This document shows positions 223 through 6,395 of a DNA stretch of 6,600 nucleotides, in pieces; within the stretch, counting starts at the first letter, position 1, and every line of letters starts with the position of its first letter. The stretch lies in the NCBI GenBank assembly GCA_947470205.1, contig CANISK010000084.1, positions 1 to 6,600 on the forward strand. Reading direction: 5' to 3'. Under the pieces are notes generated by a model. It searched no databases. It saw only the letters and a program-made list of their open reading frames with translations, and was not told the DNA's origin. This DNA is from Neisseriaceae bacterium. GTDB taxonomy: Bacteria; Pseudomonadota; Gammaproteobacteria; Burkholderiales; UBA11063. Both the position numbers and the translations under genes were made by a program.

Positions 223-450
223 ATGCAAAATATGAAACTAATTAATTCTGAAAAAGATAGATATTATCAAATTGCAATAATTCAAAATTTGTTTGATGAA
301 TACGAATTAAAAATTACACGTGGCTCAAAAAATAGACGAATATATAAACACGTTTGGTGTAACACTTTGGAGGAAGCAAATATTAAATACAAAAAATTAG
401 TAATGCTCCGTATTAGCCATGGTTATGTTGAATATTGCCCAATTAATTAA
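223..450 (+). CDS. Small WGR-like domain protein (degenerate motif)
   Basis: A 75-residue protein I read as a single divergent WGR-type domain, a small beta-rich fold that binds nucleic acid in PARPs and in many small bacterial proteins. What I see is the order of family landmarks: YYQIAIIQNLF (14-24) like the usual Y-x-L...DLF start, then YELKITRGSKNRR (27-39) where the W-G-R strand would fall, then TLEEANIKYKKL (48-59) and HGYVEY (66-71) like the closing helix and RGY. The defining W-G-R is replaced by R-G-S, so DNA binding through the canonical residues is uncertain. No good ribosome binding site precedes 223 or the alternative ATG at 232. A -10-like TATTAT sits 13 bases upstream, so a nearly leaderless message is possible. 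The next gene starts 16 bases after the stop, which suggests an operon. The assignment rests on pattern memory, not a profile search. Confidence 0.55.
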   Translation: MQNMKLINSEKDRYYQIAIIQNLFDEYELKITRGSKNRRIYKHVWCNTLEEANIKYKKLVMLRISHGYVEYCPIN

Positions 451-466
451 ATTTTTGGAGAAACGT

Positions 467-685
467 ATGACACAAGAAATTATAACAGCATCGGTTGAAA
501 ATCAAGAATCTACAACTATAACTCGAAAAATTGTGTTTGACATGGTTGCATGGAAAGAGCTATTAACAATGGCAACACATGAATATTACGATGCCAGTAA
601 AAAAACCGATGAGATAGCATCAAAAATGTTAAACCGCGTAATTAAAGAATATTTCAAAGATTATTTTGCAAAAATCATTAAATAA
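467..685 (+). CDS. Hypothetical protein, 72 residues
   Basis: I do not recognise a family. I chose the ATG at 467 rather than the upstream in-frame ATG at 419 because TTGGAG at 455-460 is a good Shine-Dalgarno sequence six bases before it, and because 419 would overlap the preceding gene by 32 bases without a ribosome binding site. The first 20 or so residues are polar and rich in T and E. The rest (about 21-72) looks helical and ends in a lysine- and aromatic-rich tail. There is no signal peptide or membrane segment. It lies between the WGR-like gene and the leader/SIR2 pair on the same strand (40-base gap to the leader), so co-transcription is likely. A partner or regulator of the SIR2-like protein is possible but purely positional. 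Confidence 0.6.
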   Translation: MTQEIITASVENQESTTITRKIVFDMVAWKELLTMATHEYYDASKKTDEIASKMLNRVIKEYFKDYFAKIIK

Positions 686-725
686 AGTCTATTATCGAAA
701 TTTTCGGTTTTTTGAGGTGCTAAAT

Positions 726-767
726 ATGCTAAATCAAACATTATTTTTATTGAGAATGCTTGTATGA
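726..767 (+). CDS. 13-codon leader ORF coupled to the SIR2-like gene
   Basis: The ORF encodes MLNQTLFLLRMLV and stops at TGA 765-767, which overlaps the ATG of the SIR2-like gene (764-766) as ATGA. It has the best ribosome binding site in this part of the window: GAGGTG at 714-719, six bases before its ATG. The SIR2-like gene itself has only a weak TGAGAA seven bases before its start. This arrangement fits translational coupling, where ribosomes finish the leader and re-initiate on the effector gene. The peptide is hydrophobic but too short for a confident membrane role. It could be coincidence in AT-rich DNA, but a strong Shine-Dalgarno plus the exact ATGA overlap argue against that. Confidence 0.5.
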   Translation: MLNQTLFLLRMLV

Positions 768-1960
768 AGGCTTTACTATTAGGTGCTGGGGCATCTTATG
801 ATTGCGGATTTCCTCTTGTTACAGAGTTAACTCCACTATTTAAATCAAAAGCTATGAAGCTTTTAGATAAGTACCCACATCATTGTAATAATCAGAAAAT
901 CTGTCTAATAATTCAAAATTTGTTTAATACCAGCATGCATTACGAGGCAATTGTTGGCTATTTGGAAGTATTATTTAATCAAACAACCGATTCATCCTAT
1001 AAAAAAGACTTGTATTATACTATTGGCTTTTTTTATCAAATAATTCACTATACTTTACTAGAAAATTATCAAATTCCTCAGTCCGAATATTGTTTAAAAA
1101 CATTAGAAGCATTTAGAGGAATTAAACATTTACTCTCGGATAATCATCCATTGTGGATATTCTCATTAAATCATGATATAATAGTTGAAATGTTATCTAA
1201 TTTATTAAATATTAATTTAAAATCTGGGTTTTTTGATGCCAAGCCAATCTCATTTAATTCATATCAAAATAAATATACTTTATTATTTGAAGAACTAACA
1301 AGGTGTAACATCAATCATAATCAATTTAATTTTTTTAGACATAATGAATCAGGAATTAATTTATTAAAAATGCATGGATCCTTAGATATTTTTGCATATG
1401 GTGATGACACTAATTATAGAAAAATAAAATTTGAAAAAAATGATCCTGAGTCTGGCACAAAAATATTAAAATTAATTGCTGAAGTAAATTTCGAAATCGT
1501 TAATAAAGATAAAATAAATTGTGTAAATGAGTCTGTATTTTTTGATGAATATGGTGAAATTCAATTTTTAAGGCATAGTATACTGTCTGGTGCCCATAAA
1601 TTTTCACCAAAAATGCAACAAATAGCTCCACCAGAATTCCTAGCACAGTTTAAGTCAAATTTAAATTACATAGATGAATTAGTTTGTATTGGTTATGGAT
1701 TTGGAGATCAACACATTAATGAAATTATTGAAGAATGGTTATCATTCAATGATGATAATAAATTAATAATTGTGAATCCCTATGGAGAAGTACCATCTTT
1801 TTTAATATATTTAATACCCAAAATATCTATAATAAAAAAACGCACAACTGATTATTTTATGAGCATTAGCGAAATGTACGATGATTCATCCATAAAATCA
1901 GTAAGACCTATTATTGATGTTATGAATAAAAGTCGGGATAGTGCCAAGAGATCATATTAA
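764..1960 (+). CDS. SIR2-like NAD-binding protein, candidate defence NADase
   Basis: A 398-residue protein with the motif set of the bacterial SIR2-like (SIR2_2-type) domain. Visible motifs are LLLGAGASYDCGFP (4-17), the Rossmann loop that contacts NAD; SLNHD (134-138), equivalent to the T-x-N-x-D motif with the catalytic-type Asn136 and Asp138; KMHGS (202-206) with the conserved His204; IGYGFGDQHINEII (309-322); and IIVNP (335-339) closing the fold. The helical segment between the first two motifs and the insertion at about 207-280 fit defence-type SIR2 domains better than protein deacetylases, and no zinc-binding Cys pairs are seen. In the family, such domains often cleave NAD+ during abortive infection (Thoeris ThsA, DSR and SIR2 paired with other partners). 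No second effector or sensor domain follows; the last 40 or so residues are polar. The start is coupled to a leader ORF. The small genes upstream may be partners. The fold is confident; the defence role is inferred. Confidence 0.88.
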   Translation: MKALLLGAGASYDCGFPLVTELTPLFKSKAMKLLDKYPHHCNNQKICLIIQNLFNTSMHYEAIVGYLEVLFNQTTDSSYKKDLYYTIGFFYQIIHYTLLENYQIPQSEYCLKTLEAFRGIKHLLSDNHPLWIFSLNHDIIVEMLSNLLNINLKSGFFDAKPISFNSYQNKYTLLFEELTRCNINHNQFNFFRHNESGINLLKMHGSLDIFAYGDDTNYRKIKFEKNDPESGTKILKLIAEVNFEIVNKDKINCVNESVFFDEYGEIQFLRHSILSGAHKFSPKMQQIAPPEFLAQFKSNLNYIDELVCIGYGFGDQHINEIIEEWLSFNDDNKLIIVNPYGEVPSFLIYLIPKISIIKKRTTDYFMSISEMYDDSSIKSVRPIIDVMNKSRDSAKRSY

Positions 1961-2070
1961 GTTGTGGCTTAACTGAATACCATTGTTACGCATGGCACAT
2001 CAACCACCCATTAATATTAATTTACTAATTATGTAAAAATACACTGTTTTAAATCTTTGTAAGTTTGGAT

Positions 2071-2092
2071 TTTACCGCATATCTGGGGTAAA
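2071..2092. repeat. Inverted repeat TTTACC / GGTAAA
   Basis: Six-base perfect arms are separated by 10 bases, in the gene-free region downstream of the SIR2-like gene. The 10-base spacer recurs in the dyads at 2159-2182 and 3153-3180. The function is unknown. Confidence 0.4.
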
Positions 2093-2158
2093 TCGGCAAT
2101 GAGATTTTGATTTTTCCGCTAGAATCATTTGATAATATCAGCTTTTTTGGTAAAATAA

Positions 2159-2268: not shown

Positions 2269-2868
2269 TTATGATGTGTAACCGAGAACTGCAGAAATCT
2301 CTGATTTTTTGTGTTGCCTTAAGTAACGATATAACGTATCACGACTAATTCCAAACTTTTTTGCTATATCAGTTTTTTTATATCTATCTGCAACCAATTG
2401 ACGCATTTCTGCAAATTGCTCATCAGTTAGACATTTACTCCTTCCTAGATATTTACCTTCTTTTTTGGCTATGGCTATGCCTTCTAATTGACGCTCTTTA
2501 ATTAATGAGCGTTCAAATTCAGCAAATGCCCCCATAACTGATAGCATTAACTTGGATAAAGGATTTCTTTCATCCTTAGTGAAGATTAAATTTTCCTTAA
2601 CAAACACAAGCGTAATGTTTTTATTTGTTATTTTATCGACTAACTTACGTAAATCATCTAAATTTCTAGCCAATCTATCCATGGAGTGAACGTACATTAC
2701 ATCTCCATCTCGCATAAATTCAAGCATTAGTGACAATTGTGGACGATTTGTGTCTTTACCTGAGCACTTGTCTATAAATACCTTATCTAATTGTAATCCA
2801 TCTAGCTGACGCACTGTATTTTGTTCCACCGAACTAACGCGAACATATCCAATACGATGCCCTTTCAT
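2269..2868 (-). CDS. Serine site-specific recombinase, resolvase/invertase family
   Basis: A 199-residue protein of the small serine recombinase family, close in size to Tn3/gamma-delta resolvases (about 185). The N-terminal catalytic domain shows GYVRVSS (7-13) with the nucleophile Ser12 and Arg10, SGKDTNRPQL (36-45) with Arg42, and HSMDRLARNLDDL (61-73) with Asp64, Arg65 and Arg68. The long linking helix follows as FAEFERSLIKERQLEGI (115-131). The C-terminal helix-turn-helix is KTDIAKKFGISRDTLYRYL (165-183). All main catalytic residues are present, so it should be active. AAGG at 2877-2880 is eight bases before the ATG, and the gene begins one base after the stop of the truncated ORF6N gene, which implies co-transcription. 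Likely work: resolving plasmid multimers or cointegrates, or inverting a segment. Sequence alone cannot separate these. It is not IS607-type, because the helix-turn-helix is C-terminal and no tnpB is adjacent. Confidence 0.93.
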   Translation of the reverse strand: MKGHRIGYVRVSSVEQNTVRQLDGLQLDKVFIDKCSGKDTNRPQLSLMLEFMRDGDVMYVHSMDRLARNLDDLRKLVDKITNKNITLVFVKENLIFTKDERNPLSKLMLSVMGAFAEFERSLIKERQLEGIAIAKKEGKYLGRSKCLTDEQFAEMRQLVADRYKKTDIAKKFGISRDTLYRYLRQHKKSEISAVLGYTS

Positions 2869-2869
2869 A

Positions 2870-3073
2870 TTAAGAACCTTTTTTATTATTTTTGGGTTTG
2901 CGTGTAACTATGTAACCATCTGGAAATTTATCTATATTTCTTGAAACTGCTTGATTAATAACTCTAGTCTCAACTTCATATAACAACGCAACATCGCTGT
3001 CTAATAACACTTCTTGTTTTCTAATTGTAATGATTTTATTTTCTACCGCTTTATTAATAGTAACTATGTTCAT
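2870..3073 (-). CDS. Truncated ORF6N-domain protein
   Basis: A 67-residue protein whose first 54 or so residues match the start of ORF6N, a domain found in phage antirepressors and plasmid or phage DNA-binding proteins. Landmarks are ITIRKQEVLLDSDVALLYEV (15-34), then ETRVINQAVSRNIDKFPDGY (35-54). A normal ORF6N domain continues into an L-T-x-E-E-type strand and helix. Here it breaks off after KFPDGYI and ends with a basic tail, VTRKPKNNKKGS. The gene therefore looks cut short at its 3' end, probably where the resolvase gene was joined. It keeps a promoter (TGTTATAAT), a weak GGAA ribosome binding site and an intact frame, so it may still be translated and may mainly serve to lead translation into the resolvase. 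Whether the short protein still binds DNA is unknown. Confidence 0.75.
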   Translation of the reverse strand: MNIVTINKAVENKIITIRKQEVLLDSDVALLYEVETRVINQAVSRNIDKFPDGYIVTRKPKNNKKGS

Positions 3074-3282: not shown

Positions 3283-3341
3283 GAAAAATGAGGACTAATT
3301 CTATACAATTCATATTCATGAGTATTATTAAATTTATATAA
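3255..3341 (+). CDS. 28-codon upstream ORF touching the LRR start (uncertain)
   Basis: The ORF starts MSAVEEIFFRKM, has a hydrophobic, isoleucine-rich second half, and stops at TAA 3339-3341, which shares its last base with an ATG at 3341 (TAATG). GAGGTG at 3236-3241 is a strong Shine-Dalgarno but is 13 bases from this ATG. An in-frame TTG at 3249 would be at a good seven-base distance. Ribosomes ending here could re-initiate at 3341 or slide to the better-spaced ATG at 3359. The layout resembles the leader of the SIR2-like gene, but support is weaker. Confidence 0.3.
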   Translation: MSAVEEIFFRKMRTNSIQFIFMSIIKFI

Positions 3342-3358
3342 TGAAAGGCGTTAAATAT

Positions 3359-4864
3359 ATGATATCTTCATCTTTAAACTTACAAAAATCCAATAATAAC
3401 ACAGGAATACAAAATACAAACACCGCTCTTGAGATGTTTCAAATTAATGATAACAATCCATTGAATAATGAAATAGATAAATGGGTTGCTGAAAATAATA
3501 ACAAAAAAACATATCAAGAAGCCGCCAAAATAATAAAAGATACCATTCAATATAAGGCGTTAGAGATAAACTTAAGTGGATTAAAATTAAAATCACTGCC
3601 AAATCTTAATATATTCCTATTGATGCCACAATTGGAGATTTTAAATTTTTCAAATAATTTATTACAAGATTTTCCAAGCGATATTATCAATTGTTGCAAA
3701 AATTTAAAACATCTCAAGCTGGCAAACAATCAATTAAAGTCGTTACCAACAAATGCAGTATATAACTTAGAGCGATTGACCTCAATAGATGTGTCTAAGA
3801 ATAACATAAACAATATAGCATCAAATGCAATACATAATTTGCCAACACTTGAGGTTCTTGATGTTTCCAATAATAATATACAAACTTTATCAGAAGATGC
3901 ACTGAATAATTTAATAAAAGTATCAAAATTATATTTTTTTGATAATAATAAATTAGAAAATATACCTCAATTTACAAGTATAAACCCTAATTGCGATATA
4001 TACCCTAAAAATCTACCCATAAACAATCAATCTATTACACAGATATTATTACATCAATTGAATGATAAACAAAATGGTCGCATCAATTATGATCAAACTG
4101 AAGCTAAAGAGTTGATTGATAATTTTCTTAAGAGAGCCACAAAGAAAGACATATTTCTTAATGATTACACGGCCAATAATCAAGATGTCATTAATATAGA
4201 GACCCCTCCAAGTGCATTAACTCAACAGTTAAGCACATTTAAAATTACAGATGCAATTTTTTTTACAGATACAAACTTATTGCATTTAAAAGATTTATAT
4301 GCGATCAATCAAGAGTATGCAATATCGCAAAACATTCCTGATGATCTAAAAGAAGAGGTGGAGTTAGCTTTTAATTATGTTGAAAGATCATACCTGGATA
4401 TTCCTAATCCTATTTATAACACATCAATACCAACACAAGAAAACCATAATGAAATTATAAGACTTACAGAATTAATAAACAATAAAATCAGTGAGCTACC
4501 GCTTGTTAATGTTGATATTAATAATAAGCAAGAGAAAATGACTGGAAAGCGTTATGATAATATAAAACGCAGTCTTCATAGTGGTGTAACTTTGACCTTG
4601 GAAGATGGCAGATTGATGGCTCATGATAGATATTATGATAGAGAGCAATTTTTAAAATTGCTTGTATCTATTAAAACTTTTGACGAAGAGTTATTTATAT
4701 CAACAATGTCACTAATAGTGGCTGGGTTGCCAACAAATTTAATGGAACAAAGGAAGGCTTTTTTAGATACATTTGTACATCTATATATTACAGGTAAATT
4801 TCCTTCTGAAGGTTTAAAGTTAGCCTATCATCATTATCTTGGTAGATGTGGGTTTATTTATTAA
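3359..4864 (+). CDS. Leucine-rich-repeat protein, effector-like
   Basis: A 501-residue protein. I prefer the ATG at 3359, because AAGG (3345-3348) lies 10 bases before it; the ATG at 3341 (507 residues) has no ribosome binding site but could be reached by re-initiation. Counting from 3341, residues 1-45 are polar and Asn/Gln-rich with no signal peptide. Residues 46-88 carry a Trp-containing helix, then LEINLSGLKLKSLP, the entry pattern of YopM/IpaH-type LRR effectors. About six 24-residue LRR units fill 72-213, for example LKHLKLANNQLKSLP and LEVLDVSNNNIQTL. Residues 220-507 match no domain I know and are mostly helical and polar. No C-x-D catalytic motif of the NEL ubiquitin ligases is visible; the only late Cys is Cys503 in GRCGFIY. 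The role is probably protein-protein binding, perhaps inside a eukaryotic host, but no secretion signal is evident. Confidence 0.85.
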   Translation: MISSSLNLQKSNNNTGIQNTNTALEMFQINDNNPLNNEIDKWVAENNNKKTYQEAAKIIKDTIQYKALEINLSGLKLKSLPNLNIFLLMPQLEILNFSNNLLQDFPSDIINCCKNLKHLKLANNQLKSLPTNAVYNLERLTSIDVSKNNINNIASNAIHNLPTLEVLDVSNNNIQTLSEDALNNLIKVSKLYFFDNNKLENIPQFTSINPNCDIYPKNLPINNQSITQILLHQLNDKQNGRINYDQTEAKELIDNFLKRATKKDIFLNDYTANNQDVINIETPPSALTQQLSTFKITDAIFFTDTNLLHLKDLYAINQEYAISQNIPDDLKEEVELAFNYVERSYLDIPNPIYNTSIPTQENHNEIIRLTELINNKISELPLVNVDINNKQEKMTGKRYDNIKRSLHSGVTLTLEDGRLMAHDRYYDREQFLKLLVSIKTFDEELFISTMSLIVAGLPTNLMEQRKAFLDTFVHLYITGKFPSEGLKLAYHHYLGRCGFIY

Positions 4865-5434: not shown

Positions 5435-5463
5435 ACTACAATTTCAGTGTATATTCTTGTCAA
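5435..5463 (-). promoter_or_regulatory. Promoter for the SH3-like gene, perfect -35
   Basis: On the minus strand a perfect TTGACA (5463-5458) is followed 17 bases later by TGTAGT (5440-5435), which matches four of six -10 bases. The start point would be near 5428, the first base of the coding frame, so the message could be leaderless. The -35 lies three bases outside the boundary of the transposon-like element. Confidence 0.45.
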
Positions 5464-5620
5464 GTTGGACACCTATTAATATTTTTAATGGACACCTATT
5501 CATATTTTTACGAAAATCTGTCCAAATTAAATCGCATTTACTGTCCAAGTTAAATATTAATAACTGTCCATCAAAAATATGAATGGGTGTCCAAATTACG
5601 TATTATTACACAATTTCAGT
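5438..5620. repeat. 11-bp direct repeats flanking the transposon-like element
   Basis: ACAATTTCAGT occurs at 5438-5448 and again at 5610-5620, 17 bases outside the left end and 16 bases outside the right end of the 128-bp element. They do not touch the ends, so they are not an ordinary target duplication. They may be chance in AT-rich DNA or a trace of a recombination event. Confidence 0.35.
5466..5593. mobile_element. 128-bp IS21-like end remnant or MITE with phased TGGACA boxes
   Basis: The element starts TGGACACC and ends GGTGTCCA, perfect inverted ends of the TG...CA type used by IS21/Mu-like transposases. Inside are six copies of one box. TGGACA starts at 5466 and 5489; the reverse complement TGTCCA starts at 5519, 5542, 5565 and 5588. 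Spacing within each group is exactly 23 bp, and the groups are 30 bp apart. The outer copies also share longer flanks, TGGACACC-T/C-ATT-A/C-ATATTTTT. Multiple phased transposase sites at both ends are a feature of the IS21 family, so I read this as two fused ends (two boxes left, four right) with istA/istB deleted. It encodes nothing. No clear target duplication is seen (AAGT left, AATT right). An array of operators is the alternative. Confidence 0.6.
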
Positions 5621-6004: not shown

Positions 6005-6208
6005 CTACTCATCATCTTTCATATGTATATACTGATGATAATTATTCACAATAAGGGCTATATATTCATTTGGTGTTAAATCATGCTTTAATGACATGCT
6101 CTTCACTGTATCATTGAGCTCTCTATATATTCTAAAGGTAATGTAATTCTCATGACCAGTTGTAGAGTTCCATTTCTTTGTTGCTTTTTTTTGTGCATCA
6201 GTTGTCAT
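6005..6208 (-). CDS. Small ribbon-helix-helix-like protein, second of a paralogous pair
   Basis: A 67-residue protein. The ATG at 6208 is chosen over an in-frame TTG at 6223 because GAGG (6221-6218) is nine bases before it and would be inside the gene otherwise. The layout is a basic N-terminus (TTDAQKKATKKW), one strand (NYITFRIYREL), then two helices (NDTVKSMSLKHDL and TPNEYIALIVNNYHQYI), the order of a ribbon-helix-helix DNA-binding protein. It resembles its upstream neighbour along its length: AQ-x-x-A-x-KK near the start, TT, then a strand, SL, and a final E-x-I helix. The two genes overlap by 11 bases (6198-6208), so translation is probably coupled. Such proteins serve as plasmid copy-control, partition, antitoxin or relaxosome proteins; no toxin partner is visible, and the exact role is open. 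Confidence 0.65.
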   Translation of the reverse strand: MTTDAQKKATKKWNSTTGHENYITFRIYRELNDTVKSMSLKHDLTPNEYIALIVNNYHQYIHMKDDE

Positions 6209-6395
6209 GGTTCTTACCCTCAAAAAGATTGATAGCTTTTAAGATAATCTCTTGCATATTCTCCTTGGTGTGTAGAGAGATATCTTTTAGTATAGTATGC
6301 GTACTACGCAATAATGTAATTTTGGTATATTTCAACTTTTGAGTAGTTTGTCTATGTTTTTTGTTTGCTCGTATCTGAGCCTCAGATTTTGCCAT
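6198..6395 (-). CDS. Small ribbon-helix-helix-like protein, first of a paralogous pair
   Basis: A 65-residue protein with a strong ribosome binding site, AAGGTG (6408-6403), seven bases before its ATG. It has a basic N-terminus (KSEAQIRANKKHRQTTQK), one strand (KYTKITLLR) and two helices (STHTILKDISLHTKE and NMQEIILKAINLFEG). This fits a ribbon-helix-helix protein, with the strand supplying base contacts in the dimer. It is a diverged duplicate of the next gene, so the pair could form a heterodimer. Its promoter region holds a dyad (6416-6440) that may be its own operator. No family name can be given from inspection. Confidence 0.65.
   Translation of the reverse strand: MAKSEAQIRANKKHRQTTQKLKYTKITLLRSTHTILKDISLHTKENMQEIILKAINLFEGKNHDN

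Follow-up and report, generated by a model that had tools for sequence, protein, structure and literature searches.

A SIR2-like protein encoded directly downstream of two small genes may act with them as a dedicated defence system, or it may act alone. This question is raised by a 6,600-base stretch of DNA from a Neisseriaceae bacterium (GenBank assembly GCA_947470205.1, contig CANISK010000084.1), here termed the window, in which one strand encodes a WGR-like protein, a protein of 72 amino acids (aa), a short leader open reading frame (ORF) and a SIR2-like protein. An earlier note, made from the DNA letters alone, described these four elements as a candidate SIR2-based operon in which the small proteins may sense or restrain the SIR2 effector. 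The explanation favoured here, to which we give somewhat better than even chances, is that the SIR2-like protein is a solo NAD+-destroying anti-phage effector quieted by the 72-aa predicted repressor encoded upstream, the WGR-like protein being an accessory of a mobile element.

The active site of the SIR2-like protein is intact as previously read, with Asn, Asp and His at residues 136, 138 and 204, and the trio is kept in all 120 listed homologues. At E ≤ 1e-3, 483 homologues are listed, the protein's own entry included. The predicted fold is close to that of the Nezha SIR2 subunit, aligned over residues 1-375, and includes a helical insert at about residues 19-126. The Aga_SIR2 models of PADLOC match the protein (1e-15), and the NCBIfam anti-phage SIR2 model gives it 35.9 bits against a cut-off of 500. 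Assignment to the defence-type SIR2 proteins, made in the earlier note, is supported by the predicted fold, the conserved trio and the defence-rich neighbourhoods of relatives. The protein is likely an NAD+-consuming anti-phage effector.

These neighbourhoods were surveyed by picking 148 genes by position around SIR2 relatives and scanning 106 of them against PADLOC. The scanned genes match 125 models at E ≤ 1e-8 (models are counted, not genes, and one gene may match several). The 25 of these 125 models that are listed include AbiLi, AriA, PD-T7-1, PD-Lambda-4, an oligonucleotide cyclase and mads_3; a transposon nuclease may underlie the Cas12f matches of one neighbour. As a control, 100 genes from 15 arbitrary regions, each one stretch of contig 1 in 15 of the same genomes, match a single model. 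Members of the SIR2 family thus lie in defence islands whose other genes vary from locus to locus, a pattern consistent with a gene acting on its own. At the locus of one relative, from another species of the same genus (L004, 236-3468, genome G013), an AbiLi-type ATPase gene (2.3e-89) and a 215-aa ORF come after the SIR2 gene. A phage origin was considered and set aside: phage records hold no SIR2 match, and three SIR2 loci lie in viral contigs. A plasmid search returned one SIR2 match only, at 35.7% identity, and no match to either small protein. In the viral contigs, the 72-aa profile finds nothing and the WGR-like protein has a 24-residue match in one (L050); in PHROGs, the two small proteins match at E 0.098 only.

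Whether SIR2 has a recurring partner was examined in the loci of its relatives. An alignment-based scan, with one genome per species, yielded 46 loci; a scan of genome contigs with the single SIR2 protein as query yielded none. Within 6 kb of SIR2, no neighbour family recurs in more than 4 of 40 loci (L004-L043; BLAST E 1e-6), a count that leaves out L044-L049 with their short SIR2 matches. Moreover, family profiles of the 72-aa and WGR-like proteins, run on stop-to-stop ORFs of at least 30 residues, find neither protein at E ≤ 0.1 in any of 49 other SIR2 loci (46 genomic and 3 viral). The same profiles do recover the window and their own source loci. Long SIR2 matches are present in 43 of the 49 loci, and 39 of these 43 extend at least 600 nucleotides (nt) upstream, leaving room for both small genes. 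The 72-aa family is likewise missing from all 24 genomes scanned that carry the SIR2 family, which cover 24 of the 46 loci.

Within the genus, represented by 23 genomes of which several are incomplete, SIR2 is found in two (G000 and G013) and the 72-aa family in five (G000, G001, G008, G009 and G014), once three weak matches (E 8.1e-4 to 2.1e-3) are dropped. The two families occur together only in G000: G013 carries SIR2 but no 72-aa gene, and the other four genomes have the reverse. The nearest relatives of SIR2, at 72% and 65%, are known from metagenome contigs of 13,231 and 10,419 bases that the absence count does not include; neither length recurs as a longest contig in the clusters of the small proteins, which is a hint only. 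Since the small genes are absent from the 49 other loci read, the SIR2 gene is largely found without them, the very outcome that the earlier note had named as refuting its three-gene pairing, and a WGR sensor paired with SIR2 is rejected. On these gene neighbourhoods, SIR2 likely acts alone, with no recurring partner in the loci read.

The WGR label stands in part. The Pfam WGR family (PF05406) scores the protein at 13.7 bits (E 0.068), below the cut-off of 22, and a genome-wide PF05406 search at E ≤ 0.01 leaves it out; the W-G-R triad reads T-R-G, and there is no further domain. What remains is a profile relation to stand-alone WGR proteins of the genus: a profile of six such proteins, three of which exceed the Pfam cut-off, finds the WGR-like protein at E 5.8e-4 among 12,382 ORFs, and hhalign gives a profile-profile probability of 83%. 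The protein has five database relatives (75-91% identity), and among 200 related genomes its type is confined to the genome of the window. Eight WGR loci of the genus were read (one each in G016, G008, G022 and G006, four in G002), a set that excludes a 382-aa frame in G004 and six matches in other genera (G054 twice, G026, G057, G042 and G060), of which those in G057 and G042 were inspected. A Pfam Resolvase gene adjoins the WGR gene in six of the eight (L085, L086, L087, L089, L090 and L091, three of them near-copies) and is not adjoining in L088 and L092. Because resolvases stand beside most of these WGR genes and the window has one too, though not beside the WGR-like gene, the protein is read as a mobile-element accessory, and this is likely from gene context, rather than a conserved SIR2 partner or virus sensor.

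The 72-aa protein has six database homologues, one being the window's own, and among 200 genomes its family is found in one genus only. It is predicted to have a ribbon-helix-helix fold; VIA and Foldseek return no significant fold for the model beyond low-Z rows, the best VIA rows including two antitoxins. The protein is likely a DNA-binding transcriptional repressor. The restraint of SIR2 proposed in the earlier note could possibly be exerted through this putative DNA-binding repressor and not through a protein inhibitor. Relatives of the 72-aa gene adjoin Gabija and DUF1016 genes: the family has four further loci, and in two of them a defence-type gene lies no more than 101 nt away on the same strand. 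At one of these (L061, 238-3402), the relative lies directly 5' of a gajA-gajB pair in the same genus. At the other (L060), only the DUF1016 gene is counted as a defence neighbour; an AbiJ gene further along is discounted because a transposon end (5457-5475) separates it from the 72-aa gene that it follows. No common operator motif was established in the intergenic regions. Searches of open-licence papers turned up no title about control of Gabija or SIR2 by a ribbon-helix-helix repressor, nor about SIR2 proteins of about 400 residues that form a stand-alone family.

The window is the complete contig C84 of a 1.43-Mb genome that is 88% complete and in 197 contigs. ORF reading confirms the four elements of the unit, all on one strand, with gene gaps of 16 and 78 nt (Table 1). 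An alternative upstream ATG at 419 would lengthen the 72-aa protein to 88 aa. The leader ORF follows a Shine-Dalgarno-like GAGGTG and ends in a stop codon that shares bases with the start of SIR2 (ATGA); together these suggest that its translation may be coupled to that of SIR2. Positions 1-2300 contain 20 promoter-like sites against 18.8 (standard deviation 4.5) in shuffles, thus no excess, and no terminator-like site (0.9 expected), a result compatible with one shared transcript or with several. Rfam finds nothing at gathering scores.

Table 1. Positions of the SIR2 unit and the adjoining mobile-element features in the window
Feature	Positions	Strand	Remarks
WGR-like protein, 75 aa	223-450	+	ORF, profile similarity
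72-aa protein, predicted ribbon-helix-helix	467-685	+	Shine-Dalgarno-like GGAG before; 16 nt past WGR-like gene
Leader ORF, 13 codons, MLNQTLFLLRMLV	726-767	+	Read from sequence alone
SIR2-like protein, 398 aa	764-1960	+	Likely NAD+-consuming defence effector
Tn3-type transposon terminal repeat, 38 bases	2067-2104	+	Inner side rightward; SIR2 gene outside
Serine resolvase	2269-2868	-	Pfam Resolvase 3.6e-35

Under the favoured explanation, a dimer of the 72-aa protein would bind an operator and limit expression ahead of infection, and the leader ORF would couple translation of SIR2 with its own start. Upon infection, the SIR2 protein would sense a phage product directly, perhaps by its helical insert or a change of oligomer, and the activated protein would hydrolyse NAD+.

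Mobile DNA borders this unit. A 38-base repeat starts 106 nt after the SIR2 stop and has 26 pattern matches (at most two mismatches) in 8 of the 23 genus genomes, against 4 for a backwards control; at least seven of the 26 lack the rest of the repeat and are probably chance. Two loci (L132, 1199-6428; L133, 76-8287) have a Tn3 transposase (DDE_Tnp_Tn3 1e-107 and 2.1e-106) together with a resolvase between copies of opposite orientation, which identifies the repeat as a Tn3-type transposon end. The SIR2 unit lies just outside this end. A 230-base miniature element in G002 (L087, 605-834) is made up of two inverted copies about 205 bases apart and is flanked at either end by an identical 6-base sequence; it resembles the published TIMEs (PMC4133298).

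This setting bears on one rival explanation, in which a solo SIR2 gene came by chance to follow a plasmid or transposon regulator unrelated to it, in a mosaic region rich in mobile DNA, with no functional link. The nearby transposon end, the inverted repeats and resolvase of the contig and the mixed neighbours of the 72-aa family all fit chance, but the same-strand defence-type genes at two of the four further loci of that family argue against it, and we consider it unlikely. A bolder form of the repressor reading, which we hold doubtful to the same degree, makes the genus-specific ribbon-helix-helix protein a portable master switch placed next to unrelated defences, namely a SIR2 NADase that has no partner, the Gabija system and a DUF1016 nuclease; if true, one regulator family would release different defences.

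Ribbon-helix-helix proteins are often antitoxins, and the 72-aa protein might accordingly bind and silence SIR2 in the manner of a type II pair. The order of the genes, antitoxin before effector, and the two antitoxins among the best VIA rows are consistent with this. A specific protein-protein pair is made unlikely by the unrelated effectors beside the 72-aa relatives (GajA/GajB and DUF1016) and by the SIR2 loci read without a 72-aa gene, leaving the antitoxin reading quite improbable. Least probable, by a little, is the dedicated three-gene system, in which nucleic-acid ends would be detected by the WGR-like protein, acting jointly with the 72-aa protein to trigger or restrain SIR2: the close same-strand spacing, the missing terminator and the equal longest contigs of WGR-like and 72-aa relatives (1352 and 1285), from which the two small genes likely travel together, speak for it, but neither small protein is found at the 49 other SIR2 loci, SIR2 and the 72-aa family share one of 23 genus genomes, and resolvases stand beside most genus WGRs.

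Elsewhere in the window, a 67-aa ORF6N protein (2870-3073) beside the resolvase covers positions 1-46 of an 86-position profile and is likely truncated; it matches PADLOC PDC-S05 and has a longer look-alike of 180 aa at L060 (1991-2533). A 507-aa leucine-rich-repeat protein (3341-4864; LRR_8 1.2e-18) has a C-terminal half without strong family match. At 5462-5597, 46-base arms that are 85% complementary and 44 bases apart, with inner TGGACACC repeats, resemble a miniature element, and two overlapping small ORFs on the minus strand (6005-6395) match Arc-like or other phage repressors weakly.

The SIR2 family of about 400 residues is widespread and has a predicted Nezha fold without an adjoining HerA. 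Its score far under the NCBIfam cut-off means that defence catalogues likely under-call it, and how a Nezha-fold SIR2 effector is activated without HerA becomes a directly testable question. If the repressor reading is true, a small regulator is common to unrelated defence systems.

Among known systems, SIR2-HerA (Nezha) has a SIR2 subunit to which the SIR2-like protein is similar in its predicted fold and in having the catalytic Asn and His, the two proteins being 16-19% identical over the aligned fold. A HerA partner was sought and not found on the contig, there being none among the ten window proteins scanned (4.6 kb downstream and 763 nt upstream of SIR2); weak DUF87 matches in the same genome lie on other contigs. 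Around relatives, no HerA model is matched by at least two of the 106 neighbour genes among the 25 of 125 models listed. The ten window proteins also include no match to the Thoeris TIR protein (ThsB) or the Argonaute of SIR2-pAgo, on a contig that starts 222 nt before the unit. DSR1 is about 1000 aa long. DSR2, with chains of 971-983 residues against 398 here, has a long C-terminal sensor region that the SIR2-like protein lacks. DSR2 is reported to act as a SIR2 NADase, binding a phage protein by direct recognition and draining the cell of NAD+ (PMC10981675); by analogy, direct sensing of a phage product and NAD+ loss may be shared.

DNA-binding repressor genes beside defence genes have been described for RptR, BrxR/CapW and CapR, and the 72-aa protein is likewise a predicted DNA-binding repressor encoded beside defence genes. 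As excerpts of that source have it, BrxR/CapW and CapR are WYL helix-turn-helix proteins and RptR is linked to Type I restriction (PMC12255303). Compared with the repressors as given there, the 72-aa protein differs in its predicted ribbon-helix-helix fold, its confinement to one genus among the 200 genomes and its place beside unrelated types of defence.
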